Assembly: GCA_009664345.1 (NCBI GenBank)
Contig: CP043547.1
Span: 1,736,001 to 1,800,000, forward strand
DNA: 64,000 nt
Direction of reading: 5' to 3'
Source: Planctomycetales bacterium 10988
GTDB taxonomy: Bacteria; Planctomycetota; Planctomycetia; Pirellulales; Pb10988
Part shown: piece after piece, positions 29,043-35,035 of the stretch
Numbering within the stretch: the first letter of the stretch is position 1
Layout of the letters: every line of letters begins with the position of its first letter
The notes under the pieces: model-generated
Database searches by the model: none
What the model was told of the DNA's origin: nothing
Seen by the model: only the letters and a program-made list of their open reading frames with translations
Position numbers and translations under genes: made by a program

Positions 29043-30092
29043 TTACCAAGCCAACTGGACTCGAAAGCGGGTCGGTTTGCCTCGCACCTTAATAATCAAT
29101 TCTTCGGCATCGAGTTGGTCGATGAACTCAGCAAGTTCGGCTTCGCTCTCGAATGTTTTCCCGTTGATGGTTTCAAGCACATGGCTGGGTTGCAGGCCAG
29201 CCTGGGCGGCGGGGGAATCTGGATAAACTCCGGTGATCATCAATTCGCCACCGGGGAGTTGCTTGACCCGAATCCCTAATCGCCACGGCGGCAGCTCGAT
29301 CGTCGCCGGCGTTTGGTTGGCTTTCTGCATTTCTCCCTTGAGATGCTTCACAAATTCTCGCCAAGGCACAAACCCACTTTTAAGATGACGCGGTGCTCCG
29401 ACGGCTTGCGGTTCTTTGCAGAGTAAGTCAACGAGGGCTCGGGTAAAGACCCCACCTTCGGTATTTCCCTGAGCTTGTGTCTTCGCCGTTGATGCATGCA
29501 GATCGACAAAGCCTCGGTGTTTCCCCAAAAGTCCCTGCAAGATAGGTCCATGAATCGCAGGTTGCCGGAACTCTCTCGTTTGCCCCTCTCCCCGTTCTTC
29601 AGAGATGGAATCGGAAAGGAGCAGGGCACAGGCAGATCGCTTCCGGCGAAGAACGTCACTCAATTCCTTCCTTGGCAACCAGCCTTCACCGAATTGCATT
29701 TCGAGTTCTTCATCCTTCCACCGCGTGTCGCCGGAGAAATAGAAGAGGATCGTTTCGTTCTTCAAGGTGGGGAGATTGCGTAGCTTTTGCAGTGCTATCG
29801 CTGGAGAACTCGACGCTGTTTCGTGCTTTTCGATTTGAAACTTCATTCGCGGTTGAACTCGCTCTGGATCATCTTGATCAAGCCCGCTCTTGATGGCCTC
29901 TTCGAGAAGTCGAGCATTGGCCACACAGCCAGGTTGTTCCGCATCGTAATAGATGATGACTTGCACCATCTCCGCCAGCGGTGCCTTTGCTTGAACGAAG
30001 CTTGTTGAAATGCCTACGACCATCCAAACATGAAGCAGAGACCCAAACCTCAAGTCAAAGCCGTGAGGCACCATCGATCGTAAGCGGAACAT
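29043..30092 (-). CDS. Caspase-fold protein without catalytic dyad, fused to PDZ
   Basis: The protein has 349 residues: a leader or membrane anchor (SLLHVWMVVGISTSFVQA), then a caspase-like (C14) domain at about 42-240. Its signs are NARLLEEAIKSGLDQ, the beta strand ETILFYFSGD, the beta strand CALLLSDSISE and the C-terminal GGVFTRALVDLL. At the expected catalytic His (usually SGHG) it has SGDT, and at the expected Cys (usually D-x-C) it has DSI; both catalytic residues appear absent. A PDZ domain fills 262-349 (GVYPDSPAAQAGLQPSHVLETINGK). It is the last gene of the ubiquitin-like operon, 72 bp after the RING gene, so it may act as a substrate adaptor or scaffold. Confidence 0.7.
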   Translation of the reverse strand: MFRLRSMVPHGFDLRFGSLLHVWMVVGISTSFVQAKAPLAEMVQVIIYYDAEQPGCVANARLLEEAIKSGLDQDDPERVQPRMKFQIEKHETASSSPAIALQKLRNLPTLKNETILFYFSGDTRWKDEELEMQFGEGWLPRKELSDVLRRKRSACALLLSDSISEERGEGQTREFRQPAIHGPILQGLLGKHRGFVDLHASTAKTQAQGNTEGGVFTRALVDLLCKEPQAVGAPRHLKSGFVPWREFVKHLKGEMQKANQTPATIELPPWRLGIRVKQLPGGELMITGVYPDSPAAQAGLQPSHVLETINGKTFESEAELAEFIDQLDAEELIIKVRGKPTRFRVQLAW

Positions 30093-30164
30093 TCCAGTAA
30101 GCCATCCTTGAAAATAGTCATCCAGAAACGAAAGCCCAATAAATCCAAAAAGTGGTTTTATCTT

Positions 30165-31019
30165 TTACGGTGATGGAGTTGTCTCGTTCGGTTGCGTGTC
30201 GGGAGGCTCCCGATAGATGACTTCCCCGCATCCATACACCGAACAAGAACCATTGTACTCCCAGCAATCACGGTGATGAGGCGTCCGGCAGTGACTACAA
30301 TACACTAATTCCTCACCAATGGCTTCCCCACAAATTCGACAGACCGGAAGCTCAGGCGTAACTTCCTCTCCCTCCAAAATTCGCACTTCATCGGGTCCCG
30401 CCAGTTGCGCGGAAGTCGCGTGATCATACAATTTGAGTACCGTCTGCATCAGCCACACGAGATGTTGATAATTCGCGTAAGCCCCGGCCTTCTCGATGAT
30501 CATCTGCCCATCGATGATCGAGAGTTCAAACCAAGAATGATGTAGAAGTCGGTCCAACACGAGCAACTCTCGCTGAACGCCGGGATCCAGAAGTTCTCGA
30601 ATCTGGACATGATTATTTCCGAGAATACGAAACCTTTGATTAAACCCCGGCTGCGCAACTTGAACATGATCACGCGCGAGCATCTGCTTTGCCCACGAAC
30701 CACGACGATGTCGATGCAGCATGCAACGAAGCTGTGCATTTCCCCAAGGGAAGGTGAAAACCGTGGAAATCTTCTGTCCAAAAATTCCCGAGCGGTTGAG
30801 TCGCACATAAACTCGCTCGCCGCGATGATCGAGACGAACTTGAGGAAGGTGTCCTAGAAAGAAAGAGGATTCGCGAAACTTTCCCTGGTATTGCTTCGCA
30901 AGCCGAGAGAAAAACTGGTTGTAGCGTTCGTTGCGGCGAAAGAAGAGCACTACAAAGATGACCCAAGCCGTCAAAGCAATGCACCAGAAGCCAGCCAGTA
31001 GTTCCGATAAGTCAGACAT
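30165..31019 (-). CDS. Membrane-anchored RING-type protein (candidate E3)
   Basis: The protein has 284 residues. One N-terminal membrane helix (residues 9-27, GFWCIALTAWVIFVVLFF) anchors it. The middle (about 45-205) is a globular domain of unknown fold. The C-terminal zinc domain (227-264) has paired ligands: C227-x2-C230, C241-x2-C244, H248/H249, C252, C259 and C264 (CRICGEAIGEELVYCSHCRT). This is the prokaryotic RING/treble-clef pattern. RING domains recruit loaded E2 enzymes, so it is the likely E3 of the operon. It lies 85 bp after the JAMM gene and 72 bp before the caspase-PDZ gene. Confidence 0.85.
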   Translation of the reverse strand: MSDLSELLAGFWCIALTAWVIFVVLFFRRNERYNQFFSRLAKQYQGKFRESSFFLGHLPQVRLDHRGERVYVRLNRSGIFGQKISTVFTFPWGNAQLRCMLHRHRRGSWAKQMLARDHVQVAQPGFNQRFRILGNNHVQIRELLDPGVQRELLVLDRLLHHSWFELSIIDGQMIIEKAGAYANYQHLVWLMQTVLKLYDHATSAQLAGPDEVRILEGEEVTPELPVCRICGEAIGEELVYCSHCRTPHHRDCWEYNGSCSVYGCGEVIYREPPDTQPNETTPSP

Positions 31020-31104
31020 GAGAATCGATCAGTATCATAATCTTTGTGAATACTATCAAAAAGTAGTTTTTAACAATCATCCAAAAAACGCTTTTTATGT
31101 TTAC

Positions 31105-32580
31105 TTATCGCCAGTTCTCCTGATTTTCAATTCCAAGTTCTGTGGATTGATTCTTTTCCTCGGAATCCAGCGGTTCTTCATCCGTGATCGTGACCGGGTC
31201 GTCATAGGATGCTGAAGAGGGCGAACGACTTCGCCACCAAAATAACCCTCCACTCAGACACAAAGCGAGCAGGAAGGCTCCGCCAGAAGTGGCAAGATAC
31301 GTCCACACGCTCCCCCAGGTATTCTGGCCATGCGTCAACTTCAGGTCGGCAAGTTCTTTCTTCAAGTCAAAGTTTTCCTTGCTGGAAGCGTCTCGCTGAT
31401 CCTTGAAGGTTTCAACCTCTTTCTCTAAGGTGTCCCGCTCGGAAATAAGGGTTACGTTTTCAGCCAGCACCTCTTCATGCTGTTGATTGAGCGCGGCCCA
31501 AGCTTGCGACTGTTGAGCGATCATCTTTTGGAAGGCGTCATTCGATCCTTTCATTTCAATATATTCACTGGCCAGGTCCTCGGGGCCGTCTTGAACTTGC
31601 TCGATGATACGATCGAGCATTCTGGTTTTGACTTCCAAGGCTTGTTCCCGCTTCAGGAGGGTCTCCAACTTTTCTTGGGCGGAAACCAAAGACCTCTCCT
31701 CTTTCGGAGAAGCATTTGTTGGCGGTAGTGCGGTAGCTGTCGGCGCACTCCCAATGAAATAGAAGATGCCTGCCGTTTGCAAAAAGAGAATCAGCAGCAA
31801 CGACGTGCCGAGCAATAAAAAGGGAGAAACGTTGGAACGTTGCATCGTCAATTCTCTCCAAGAGTCCATCGGTTCGTAGGGTTCGTCCGCTGTGAGTGGT
31901 TGCCTTTGCGGAGAAAGTTCCCCGGATTCCGTGCGAGGGCCTTCGGGAAAGCCATCCCGTTCGTGCTGAAGCTGGTCGACGAAACGTTTGAGAAAACGCT
32001 GCCGATGCCGGGAAGAAATCACATAAAAGCCTCGACAGCGCGGCAAGCGATCCGCCGGGTCAGGGCCCCAATAGAAAAATCCCCAATCAAGCCGCAATGG
32101 ATCGACCACCAGGGCGACATCGAGCGGACGATTGAAAAAATGATCGCAAATAAAGGTATCCATCCCCGAAAGAAAAACGCCCCAGCCAGGATGCGTATGA
32201 TACCAGCCGACCATCTTCAGTTCATCGGAAAACGCCTGTTGTTCTTGGCCGATCTTCGTCCAGGTCTCATGCGTAAACTTAAAGTGACCGCGACTACTTT
32301 CATAGTCACGCGCCCGCACGCTATCGGTCACGAGGACAAACGGCTTTCCCTCTTCATCCTCATACTGGCCCCCAAGGAGCACCCCGCCTAGCTCAACCGA
32401 TTTATCTTCATGGGCATGGGCCTCGATTTCCATGAGCGTATCCAAATCGAGAAAGACAGGGAGTTCCGTTTCATCGGGATCATCGTACGGAACGACGGCA
32501 AAATGCCGATCACGGTCGGGACGCCGCCGCGTGCCGGGGCGTTCGACCTCCATCTCTCCGAATTGAATCTCCTCATCCAT
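31105..32580 (-). CDS. Membrane-anchored JAMM (JAB/MPN) metallopeptidase with coiled coil
   Basis: The protein has 491 residues. The JAB domain spans about 40-195 with all JAMM ligands: Glu64 (VELGGVLLGG), then HTHPGWGVFLSGMD giving His128, His130, Ser138 and Asp141. JAMM enzymes cleave isopeptide bonds to ubiquitin-like tails. After it come a membrane helix (about 253-278, LLLGTSLLLILFLQTAGIFYF), a long coiled coil (about 295-415) and a second membrane helix (about 427-448). The two helices put the coiled coil on the outer side of the membrane if the JAB domain is cytoplasmic. It lies between the E1 gene and the RING gene. Confidence 0.92.
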   Translation of the reverse strand: MDEEIQFGEMEVERPGTRRRPDRDRHFAVVPYDDPDETELPVFLDLDTLMEIEAHAHEDKSVELGGVLLGGQYEDEEGKPFVLVTDSVRARDYESSRGHFKFTHETWTKIGQEQQAFSDELKMVGWYHTHPGWGVFLSGMDTFICDHFFNRPLDVALVVDPLRLDWGFFYWGPDPADRLPRCRGFYVISSRHRQRFLKRFVDQLQHERDGFPEGPRTESGELSPQRQPLTADEPYEPMDSWRELTMQRSNVSPFLLLGTSLLLILFLQTAGIFYFIGSAPTATALPPTNASPKEERSLVSAQEKLETLLKREQALEVKTRMLDRIIEQVQDGPEDLASEYIEMKGSNDAFQKMIAQQSQAWAALNQQHEEVLAENVTLISERDTLEKEVETFKDQRDASSKENFDLKKELADLKLTHGQNTWGSVWTYLATSGGAFLLALCLSGGLFWWRSRSPSSASYDDPVTITDEEPLDSEEKNQSTELGIENQENWR

Positions 32581-32621
32581 TAGCCGCCTGCTTATCTCAA
32601 TTTAAAAAGTACTTTTTATTT

Positions 32622-33830
32622 TTAATCTTCATCCGCACAATCAAAAAAGTGGTTTTTATCTCCATCGAGCGAGAGGAATTGTTCTTCCTCTTCAGAAGTA
32701 ATACGAATCCAATCGAAAGGAGCAATTCCCAAGTCACTCAACTTTTTCTTCGCAAGTGCATCCTCAGAATCGAGGGAATGAAGGATGATCGGCTCCATTT
32801 CCGGATGCCCACACTCCGAGCATTTTGCATCTTTCCGATAAACGGCCAGCGTCGGCTTCAACACTTCAATCTGGTTTCCACATTCATGACAACGAAAGGA
32901 GGAAACCAGATCGCGTTCCAAATGCAGTGTCAATGGTTTGGCTTCACTCTTAAAAAGTGGTTTTGCCTTTTGAAAGAGTTCGTTTGCGGTCGCCTCGCTC
33001 ACTCGTAAGCCAGTAGCATGAGGAATCGGATAGGTTTCGTGGCTAAGGCAGTCCTCTTTACGAGGAAGTTTCGTTTGATACGTCTGATTGCTCAGCCCGT
33101 TGAATACCGTGGCAACCCCGCCGGTAACAGGCAAGTCATGGAGAATTTTCAACGCCTCTTGCGTTTGCCACCCTGCCACAATCGAGGCGATCGTCGGAGC
33201 TGTCGGCACCTTGCCGGCGGAGATTTCTTCCTCTCTTAACTGCGGACAGGAATAACGAAGATTGATAAGTCGGTAATCGTTCTCGGTCATCGTGCATTCA
33301 TAACAAGTGCCATCGGGGGGCAGATAAACCTTGAAGACTCCGTTGATTTCTTGAATCGCCCCATCGATCCAAGGGGTGGTCGTTTTCCAACAACTCCGGT
33401 TTACCCAAAGACGGGCCTCGCGATTATCCAGGCATCCGATTACGACCCCGACTTCCGCAAAAACTCCCAACCCCACGTCGGTCATGATGTTGGCTTCCAG
33501 CGGCGTGACCTTCACTTCAGGATTGAGGGAGCGAACCGCATCGGCCGCAACTTGGGCTTTCGATTTTCCTTTATCTTCCGCACGGAAGAGGACCGACCGC
33601 GAGAGATTCGAAAGTTCGATGCGATCAAAGTCAACGAGAATAATCTCACCCACTCCGACGAGGGCGAGATTTTTGAGAACCTCATTTCCTAAAGCTCCCG
33701 CTCCGACAACGAGAACTTTTGCCTCTTTCAAGACAGATTGTTTCCACCAACCAATCAAACGCAAGCGGCTATAGCGATCCTCATCGGACATCGGTTGCGG
33801 TGCATTGTCGGAGAGAGGTTCGTTCATCAA
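32622..33830 (-). CDS. E1/ThiF-like ubiquitin-activating enzyme
   Basis: The protein has 402 residues. The Rossmann ATP site GAGALGNEVLKNLALVGVG starts at residue 43; the adenylation residues are the VDFDRIELSNLSR block (66-78) and GCLDNREAR (132-140). Zinc ligands CYEC are at 176 and 179, and a candidate catalytic Cys195 lies in RYSCPQL. Residues of about 255-402 form an extension with a four-Cys zinc ribbon (C314/C317 and C337/C340, CHEC and CSEC). It should adenylate the C-terminal glycine of the ubiquitin-like protein and pass it to the E2. The gene lies 32 bp after the E2 and 41 bp before the JAMM gene. MoeB/ThiF is an alternative, but the context argues against it. Confidence 0.92.
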   Translation of the reverse strand: MMNEPLSDNAPQPMSDEDRYSRLRLIGWWKQSVLKEAKVLVVGAGALGNEVLKNLALVGVGEIILVDFDRIELSNLSRSVLFRAEDKGKSKAQVAADAVRSLNPEVKVTPLEANIMTDVGLGVFAEVGVVIGCLDNREARLWVNRSCWKTTTPWIDGAIQEINGVFKVYLPPDGTCYECTMTENDYRLINLRYSCPQLREEEISAGKVPTAPTIASIVAGWQTQEALKILHDLPVTGGVATVFNGLSNQTYQTKLPRKEDCLSHETYPIPHATGLRVSEATANELFQKAKPLFKSEAKPLTLHLERDLVSSFRCHECGNQIEVLKPTLAVYRKDAKCSECGHPEMEPIILHSLDSEDALAKKKLSDLGIAPFDWIRITSEEEEQFLSLDGDKNHFFDCADED

Positions 33831-33862
33831 GTCATTGTCACTTTCTGCAAGTCGCGGAGAAT

Positions 33863-34660
33863 CTACTCAATCCGGAAGATATCTTCTTCGGGGGAGGAAG
33901 TGACTTCATCTAAAAAGACAATGCCCTCTTCGGGTGAATGCTGCGGGACGCTCGAAGCAGCCGGGTTCCTGCGAGGGCTAGGCTCCTCGGACCGAGAGGC
34001 AGGAAGCGGGGGCGGCAAGAGAAATTCGTCTTCAGGAAATTCTGGAGGGAGGGGCGGGGGCTCGGAATCGGCAAGGGTCTCTGAAGGGGGTGTTTTGCCT
34101 AAATAAGGCGGAACTTGAGGGGGAATGATGGTCGGTTCGGAGGTCGGCGGTTTCGAAGTGGTTCCTTCTTCTCGCTGAAAGAGATCGCGCAACGGTCGCG
34201 AATCTACCGGGAATGCCGTTCGACTTTGCGTGGTGGCCCAATGAGCGGCAACCCGATTGTACGGGCTCGAAACATCGTAATTCGCATAACGAATCATATC
34301 CCATAACATCAAACAAAGATCGGCTAGGCCAAGACTCGGCACCCAATGTTTGGTATATCCGCCCAGGCAAACCGCTCCGTTGGTTGCAATATTCGGATGA
34401 AAGATCGGCGTAATCCAGCGTAACTCCGGACCTTGCCGCGGATATTGCGTTCCCAAACGAACGGTGAGTTGATGCTCTTTGACGATAATGGGTGACTTTT
34501 CCTGCTTCGGTCGGGCCAAGCCTTTGCCGAGGAACGTCAGGGTATATTTGTCAGGAGGATTGCCGCGACCTTCGAACTGGAAGATGCTGCTGTTGGATTG
34601 GATTTCCGCCAAGCCTCGGGCATCAGAACGCAAACGTCGCAAGCGAGGTGTTTCCCGCAT
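33863..34660 (-). CDS. E2 ubiquitin-conjugating-like enzyme with Pro-rich tail
   Basis: The protein has 265 residues. The E2 fold covers about 1-145: RLRRLRSDARGLAEI (helix 1), LTVRLGTQYPRQGPELRWIT, and the active-site motif FHPN at 87-90 followed by catalytic Cys98 (AVCLGG). The C-terminal helices include LADLCLMLWDMIRYANYDV. Both the HPN Asn90 and Cys98 needed for transfer are present. Residues of about 150-265 are a Pro/Ser/Glu-rich tail, likely flexible. A strong ribosome site (GGAGG) precedes the ATG by 8 bp. It lies second in the operon, after the ubiquitin-like gene. Confidence 0.9.
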   Translation of the reverse strand: MRETPRLRRLRSDARGLAEIQSNSSIFQFEGRGNPPDKYTLTFLGKGLARPKQEKSPIIVKEHQLTVRLGTQYPRQGPELRWITPIFHPNIATNGAVCLGGYTKHWVPSLGLADLCLMLWDMIRYANYDVSSPYNRVAAHWATTQSRTAFPVDSRPLRDLFQREEGTTSKPPTSEPTIIPPQVPPYLGKTPPSETLADSEPPPLPPEFPEDEFLLPPPLPASRSEEPSPRRNPAASSVPQHSPEEGIVFLDEVTSSPEEDIFRIE

Positions 34661-34729
34661 CGGGGCCTCCGCACTAATTTCGGATGACTAGATAGACTAT
34701 ATATTAGAGAAAGCAGGGGGGATGATCCG

Positions 34730-35035
34730 CTACCCAGCGACGATTTCCGGATAGACAATCAAGTGATCCCCCGCCCGGATGCCAGCTTCGGGCAAAGTTT
34801 GATCTTCGAGAAGCCGGCGACCTTGTTCCTTATGATCGAGGCTGTAACTGACTGGTTGCCCATCAGGGCCCGTCAGCGGGAGATTCATCTTGCCAACAAT
34901 ATTGGGCAAAATACGCCGCACGGTCACATTATCCGCAATCACCGCCGGGACCGATTTGGCACCTGTCTGATCGAGAAAAATCACACGCGTTCCCGCAGGG
35001 TCGCCGTTATCGGTGATGAGTTCTTGTTCTGCCAT
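34730..35035 (-). CDS. Ubiquitin-like (YukD-type beta-grasp) protein ending in Gly
   Basis: The protein has 101 residues. The pattern is beta-grasp: TRVIFLDQTGAKSVPAVIA (strand pair), NVTVRRILPNIVGKMNLPL (helix), and the final SLDHKEQGRRLLEDQTL followed by PEAGIRAGDHLIVYPEIVAG. The 'L-x-x-aGI-x-x-GD-x-L' block is the classic ubiquitin/YukD signature. The chain ends directly at ...IVAG, so the C-terminal glycine is already exposed; no processing step is needed for activation. It is the first gene of the operon, ahead of E2, E1, JAMM and RING, and is the expected modifier. AGGT lies about 8 bp before its ATG. Confidence 0.85.
   Translation of the reverse strand: MAEQELITDNGDPAGTRVIFLDQTGAKSVPAVIADNVTVRRILPNIVGKMNLPLTGPDGQPVSYSLDHKEQGRRLLEDQTLPEAGIRAGDHLIVYPEIVAG

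Follow-up and report, generated by a model that had tools for sequence, protein, structure and literature searches.

Operons that link a ubiquitin-like modifier (Ubl) to E1, E2 and RING proteins and to a JAB (JAMM) peptidase, the so-called tri-ligase operons, have been reported from Planctomycetes; in the account of Burroughs, Iyer and Aravind (2011) cited in PMC4197634, their occurrence is sporadic and they are missing in close relatives. In Caldiarchaeum subterraneum, ubiquitin, E1, E2, a small RING protein and an Rpn11/JAMM enzyme are encoded near one another, and the pathway was reconstituted in vitro (PMC5654768). The Bil system (BilABCD) has a BilA with two Ubl domains and a BilD with an inactive and an active adenylation domain (PMC11354881), and in the FtsH-ternary systems the Ubl is fused to the E2 and to EAD1, with MoxR, vWA and FtsH partners and a caspase-like peptidase (PMC7159879). 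Here we describe a locus related to these systems, found in a window of 64,000 nt from Planctomycetales bacterium 10988 (GCA_009664345.1, CP043547.1 positions 1,736,001-1,800,000). Six open reading frames (ORFs), all on the minus strand, occupy positions 29043-35035 of the window, with intergenic gaps of 69, 32, 41, 85 and 72 bases; five of them (30165-35035) form a co-directional Ubl-E2-E1-JAMM-RING set, and the sixth encodes a caspase-fold/PDZ protein. We favor, at a probability of about 0.6, the view that this operon is a membrane-associated bacterial ubiquitin-like conjugation system whose enzymes carry terminal motifs that dock the Ubl, the caspase-PDZ protein being a dead local neighbor.

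By its gene set, the locus is a further example of an operon kind already reported from planctomycetes. The likeness to the tri-ligase operons was drawn from the gene set alone (Ubl, E1, E2, RING and JAB), as given in the account cited above; the window RING protein in addition matches the Prok-RING_1 family, and the sequence features expected of such an operon were found, namely a Gly-ended beta-grasp Ubl, a ThiF E1, an E2 with HPN and Cys, a RING, an intact JAMM and linkage across genomes. The same components make up the Caldiarchaeum operon; its ubiquitin, however, ends in Gly-Gly followed by a pro-peptide that the JAMM cuts, whereas the window Ubl ends in Ala-Gly without extension, and the RING and JAMM of the window are membrane-borne. 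Bil likewise holds a Ubl, an E1, an E2 and a JAB enzyme within one operon, but the window Ubl is single-domain (101 aa), the E1 has a single ThiF domain in 402 aa, and a RING is present; the BilD profile matched the window E1 only at residues 38-150, with one ThiF match. The FtsH-ternary systems share with the window the Ubl tri-ligase set, a JAB and a caspase-like gene. Unlike in those systems, Ubl and E2 are here separate genes with no extra domain by Pfam. Among the nearest neighbors scanned, no MoxR, vWA or FtsH partner was noted.

All five proteins exceeded the Pfam cut-offs in the expected families (YukD, UQ_con, ThiF, JAB and Prok-RING_1). The Ubl (34730..35035) has a YukD/ubiquitin fold (YukD 2.5e-13), and its AlphaFold2 model is a beta-grasp (pLDDT 87.8) whose top match in the PDB is the C. 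subterraneum ubiquitin 6fno (2.7e-6), several SUMO structures also being matched. The chain ends in ...EIVAG, and the terminal Ala-Gly is invariant across 54 aligned Ubls of loci with the architecture of the window (type A, see below); one Ubl in an earlier set of loci (L059) appears to lack the terminal Gly. The E2 (265 aa, 33863..34660) combines a UBC core (UQ_con 5.2e-14) with a Pro-rich tail (about aa 158-265) that is probably disordered; in the alignment with human UBE2N (1.4e-9) its HPN and Cys98 fall on the E2 active-site motif, and HPN and CLG are invariant among 17 type-A E2s. The E1-like enzyme (32622..33830) has a ThiF adenylation domain with the GAGALG motif (ThiF 4.9e-57), then a zinc ribbon in its C-terminal part and a conserved segment at the C-terminus; its PDB relatives are UBA7, UBA1, ThiF and MoeB. 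The CYEC sequence of this enzyme (C176/C179) is most likely a zinc-ligand pair, a reading that fits better than that of an active site, which we rejected; C195 (in RYSC), kept in 26 of 26 aligned operon-linked E1s, is the candidate catalytic cysteine.

The predicted isopeptidase (491 aa, 31105..32580; JAB 2.3e-8) carries the complete ligand motif HTHPGWGVFLSGMD, and these ligands are conserved among relatives. According to hydropathy, its JAMM domain is followed by a transmembrane (TM) stretch (about 255-273), a coiled segment and another TM stretch (about 429-447). The candidate E3 is a RING protein of 284 aa (30165..31019; Prok-RING_1 5e-10; AlphaFold2 pLDDT 90) with an N-terminal TM helix (about 7-25), a middle domain and a C4HC3-type RING (C227-C264), a domain in which seven Cys and one Trp are invariant among relatives and His248 is nearly so. 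The middle domain matches mycobacterial TtfA (6t84, E 1.3e-4), a membrane lipid-transport factor. From the TM stretches of JAMM and RING, conjugation likely takes place at the membrane; envelope quality control as the physiological role is only a guess. These results bear out what a preliminary description of this DNA had proposed from the letters of the window: six ORFs at these positions and strand, a beta-grasp protein with a Gly end, an E2 with HPN and a catalytic Cys98, an E1 with GAGALG, a JAMM enzyme with its full metal ligands, a RING-like protein, and membrane anchors on the last two. Pfam families (among them UQ_con for the E2 fold and YukD for the Ubl fold), matches to solved structures, the Ubl model and the catalytic residues conserved in relatives support the completeness of the linked Ubl-E1-E2-RING-JAMM set.

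Of the genomes sampled, 35 of 392 in the phylum and 26 of 297 in the order had proteins of the UQ_con family, and therefore the system is patchy. Gene maps of 61 loci, sorted by eye, gave three architectures. Type A, that of the window, is arranged as Ubl-E2-(short JAMM)-E1-membrane JAMM-(second E2)-RING, with variants; type B as Ubl-E1-JAMM-FHA protein-zinc/RING proteins followed by E2, often with a DUF2752 protein; and type C as E1-Ubl-E2-JAMM, RING not being detected. In a scan covering 84,980 species, the type-A E2 had 319 relatives. Of these, the 80 best were kept as named loci that partly overlap with the 61; nearly all of these best 80 belong to planctomycetes, including Singulisphaera acidiphila DSM 18658 (L174) and Tautonia sociabilis. 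Named loci with a length of 18.3 kb or more numbered 39; the Ubl was present in all 39, E1 and JAMM in 38 each, a detectable RING in 31, all five components in 30, and two E2s in 16. Chance is excluded by the recurrence of this gene set, arranged as an operon, in dozens of genomes; the Ubl Ala-Gly end, HPN and CLG of the E2, the cysteines of the E1 and the metal ligands of the JAMM are conserved in these relatives. The synteny across planctomycetes that the preliminary description had proposed to compare was thus found, with the Ubl Gly and the E2 Cys kept. In the genome of strain 10988 itself, a family search revealed no second E2 or second YukD, and ThiF gave one strong and one weak match besides the operon E1.

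Many type-A operons contain a second E2-like gene without the catalytic Cys, which recalls the eukaryotic UEV partners and does not occur in the window; one lies at L046:11708-12382 (GFLEPV vs AVCLG elsewhere), and others in L103, L105, L106, L107, L110 and L113. Solitary E2-like genes, with no Ubl, E1 or JAMM nearby, were seen at L061, L065 and L067, and at least one of them appears to lack the active-site Cys. Several RING/zinc proteins, one of them fused to a trypsin-like domain, are encoded in type-B loci (L036, L043, L047, L056 and similar).

The tails of type-A E2s are Pro-rich and unalignable, yet nearly all of them terminate in [DE]-I-[LVM]-F-[IL]-[DE]. The form [DE]-I-x-F-[IL]-[DE]-COOH closes 50 of 53 non-redundant type-A E2s, where about 1% would be expected. 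The motif was found in 55 of 59 parsed tails, compared with 1.05% of shuffled tails and 0.8% of 1017 background ORFs, and the unparsed tails listed with them close with it as well; the relative entropy of the tails was 1.8-3.7 bits at positions -1 to -6, dropping toward the null upstream. A position-specific scoring matrix (PSSM) built from type-A E2 C-termini was then used to scan the other operon proteins. It matched 23 of 26 second or divergent E2s (0.3 expected), 15 of 91 JAMMs (1.8), 8 of 76 E1s (1.5) and 5 of 62 RINGs (0.9), the sites lying in second-E2 tails, at JAMM and E1 N-termini and in the stretch before the RING. By a strict regular expression, the N-termini of 39 of 61 TM-JAMMs are [DE]IxFG[DE]-like, most others having close variants, and E1 N-termini in relatives often read xLIIDDDDRYSR. 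In the window, the E2 tail carries an internal copy, EEGIVFLD (aa 244-251, 33908..33931; 19.2 bits), and a C-terminal one, EEDIFRIE-COOH (aa 258-265, 33866..33889; 12.1 bits); the JAMM starts with DEEIQFGE (aa 2-9, 32554..32577; 11.3 bits), and a weak stretch before the RING, PDEVRILE (aa 209-216, 30372..30395; 5.3 bits, below threshold), coincides in position with the GIxF consensus column of RING relatives. Binding of the E2 C-terminus by a PDZ domain was considered and rejected: these E2s terminate in Asp or Glu, and classical PDZ ligands in a hydrophobic residue. This end-of-chain motif, shared by enzymes of Ubl operons, seems to be undescribed; no report of terminal motifs in such operons was found in the literature searched, coverage of which was partial, and its novelty is provisional.

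In the SUMO pathway, the flexible extensions of SAE2 (E1) and of the SENP proteases carry SUMO-interacting motifs (SIMs), and this kind of Ubl-SIM interaction has been called a hallmark of SUMO signaling, absent from the ubiquitin realm (PMC12687455). The operon motifs share the sequence logic of SIMs, a short hydrophobic core with an acidic flank in a region whose flexibility is deduced from composition; they differ in that the window E2 itself terminates in a motif, and binding of the Ubl to them is putative. The beta1 strand of the Ubl (VIFLDQTG; VTFLDQTG in relatives) is itself like the docking motif, which may thus be a mimic of a Ubl strand.

Type-C loci provide a comparison of charge. 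At the same protein ends they bear alternating hydrophobic, basic motifs (VRISIKPKPK in the E2, LRIRVK in the JAMM and EIQVKSKRG in the E1), and the mean net charge of the last 12 E2 residues changes from -2.6 in both the type-A genomes and the named type-A loci to -0.2 in type B and +3.1 in type C. Reciprocally, the mean net charge of the beta2-alpha1 region of the Ubl is +1.8 in type-A genomes, +1.6 in named type-A loci, -0.5 in type B and -5.9 in type C; these are comparisons of clades rather than a statistical test. The charge of the E1 core shifts with that of the motifs, from negative to positive, and no change of sign is seen in the cores of E2 and JAMM, so that of the four pieces compared the Ubl alone flips its charge opposite to the motifs. 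We therefore infer a SIM-like docking code read on the Ubl. That this bacterial Ubl pathway has a SIM-like code of its own, with E1, E2 and the remover (and the RING in relatives) docking the modifier, and with a charge-reversed sister lineage forming orthogonal pairs, is a proposal to which we give even odds.

In the pathway that we propose, the E1 would adenylate the Ala-Gly end of the Ubl, which would pass through a thioester from the E1 to the E2 at Cys98. Once charged, the E2 would be brought by the membrane-bound RING to substrates at the membrane or close to it, and from these the membrane-bound JAMM would take the Ubl off. The disordered ends of E2 and JAMM (and of E1 and RING in relatives), bearing [DE]-I-x-F-[ILG]-[DE] motifs, would make non-covalent contact with the Ubl. 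The likeliest mode would be beta-addition in the beta2/alpha1 groove of the Ubl, comparable to that of SIMs on SUMO, and such docking would keep Ubl, E2, E3 and isopeptidase together.

The gene next to the RING encodes a caspase-fold/PDZ pseudoenzyme of 349 aa with a probable signal peptide (29043..30092; PDZ_6 3.8e-10). Its caspase nature is visible solely through homologues, most of which retain the HG...DC dyad, with Peptidase_C14 scores of up to 1.2e-8; the window protein lacks the His-Cys dyad of an active caspase, having D122 at the position of the homologues' His and S162-I163 at that of their CC, and calling it dead, as was done at first, was correct. The homologues begin with signal-peptide-like sequences and the window copy with a weaker one, as judged by eye; the protein is probably exported. 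No terminator-like site was seen between the RING and this gene and one was seen at its end, in a scan with a high chance background; it may be co-transcribed with the operon. With the family profile, only the window copy was found among the 61 loci, the best value among the 80 named loci was E 0.041, and none of 140 other loci had a convincing relative; the genomes of four examined homologues gave no E2 match. Caspase-PDZ proteins of a planctomycete family, probably exported (L073, L075, L076, L077), mostly have an intact dyad and are unlinked to Ubl genes. On these comparisons the protein looks like a local neighbor, not a conserved member of the Ubl system, and its role as the effector of the system was rejected: absent from the other loci examined, it is catalytically dead and probably exported. 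Hence, of the earlier interpretation, the complete linked set with its conserved residues and the TM stretches on JAMM and RING stand, and the caspase-PDZ protein as a part of the system does not.

Around the window operon lie an efflux protein, a MobA-like gene, an AraC/XylR regulator and an alcohol dehydrogenase. Most of the 113 proteins encoded in the flanks are of ordinary kinds (transglutaminase-like, GNAT, M48 peptidase, cobalamin adenosyltransferase), and PADLOC matches to defense families are few among them. The flanks of several related loci share gene clusters, which suggests vertical retention there. Directly 3' of the operon, several genomes have a gene for an M48 CAAX-type membrane peptidase (L052:5911-7266 and several Isosphaeraceae flanks).

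The charge data bear on a reading in which the conjugation operon is real and the motifs bind a partner other than the Ubl, for example another operon domain or a host hub protein, or drive self-assembly. In bacteria, the acidic-hydrophobic C-terminal tip of SSB serves as a protein hub, and a motif on nearly every enzyme would suit any common partner; we nevertheless consider a partner other than the Ubl possible though doubtful, because, when the Ubl is set beside the cores of E1, E2 and JAMM, it alone reverses against the motifs from type A to type C, in which no RING was detected. A function in anti-phage defense, related to Bil/Bub/CBASS-type conjugation and with the caspase-like protein as effector, would agree with the patchy distribution and with the role of Bil and FtsH-ternary Ubl as conflict systems; in the latter, a caspase-like effector accompanies the Ubl tri-ligase genes (PMC11354881, PMC7159879). 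The neighborhood gives no support to a defense link: with so few defense-family matches in the flanks, the idea of a defense island was rejected, the vertical retention suggested by common flanks also speaks against it, the caspase-like protein, a dead enzyme that is probably exported, occurs at the window locus only, and no EAD, MoxR, vWA or FtsH was noted beside the operon among the nearest neighbors scanned. We regard this function as unlikely. That YukD is the top Pfam family of the Ubl could mean a secretion component (cf. YukD/EsaB of type VII) with E1 and E2 merely adjacent; given the conserved Ala-Gly end, the constant linkage to E1, E2 and JAMM, best fold matches to ubiquitin and SUMO, and no ESX/Ess secretion genes among the nearest neighbors of the operon, this is very improbable.

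Several points weigh against a conjugation system with Ubl-docking motifs. The case for conjugation and docking is drawn wholly from sequence comparison and models, the E3 role of the RING is putative, and the partner of the motifs could be outside the operon. The named loci were picked by E2 similarity, as the best 80 of 319; the PSSM enrichments in JAMM, E1 and RING are modest, and the JAMM count of 39/61 depends on a hand-set regular expression. In the window, the C-terminal E2 copy (DIFRIE) is a weaker variant, the RING copy is below threshold and the E1 is without a clear copy. The charge reversal comes from few clades, with small phylogenetic independence.

If the motifs dock on the Ubl, non-covalent reading of a modifier exists in prokaryotes, perhaps by convergence, and these five genes would offer a compact example of how a Ubl cascade stays together and at the membrane. 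The charge-reversed type C offers a ready-made test of specificity. Furthermore, since Singulisphaera acidiphila DSM 18658, which is cultured and has a complete genome, harbors the operon, the question can be put to the test in a living host.

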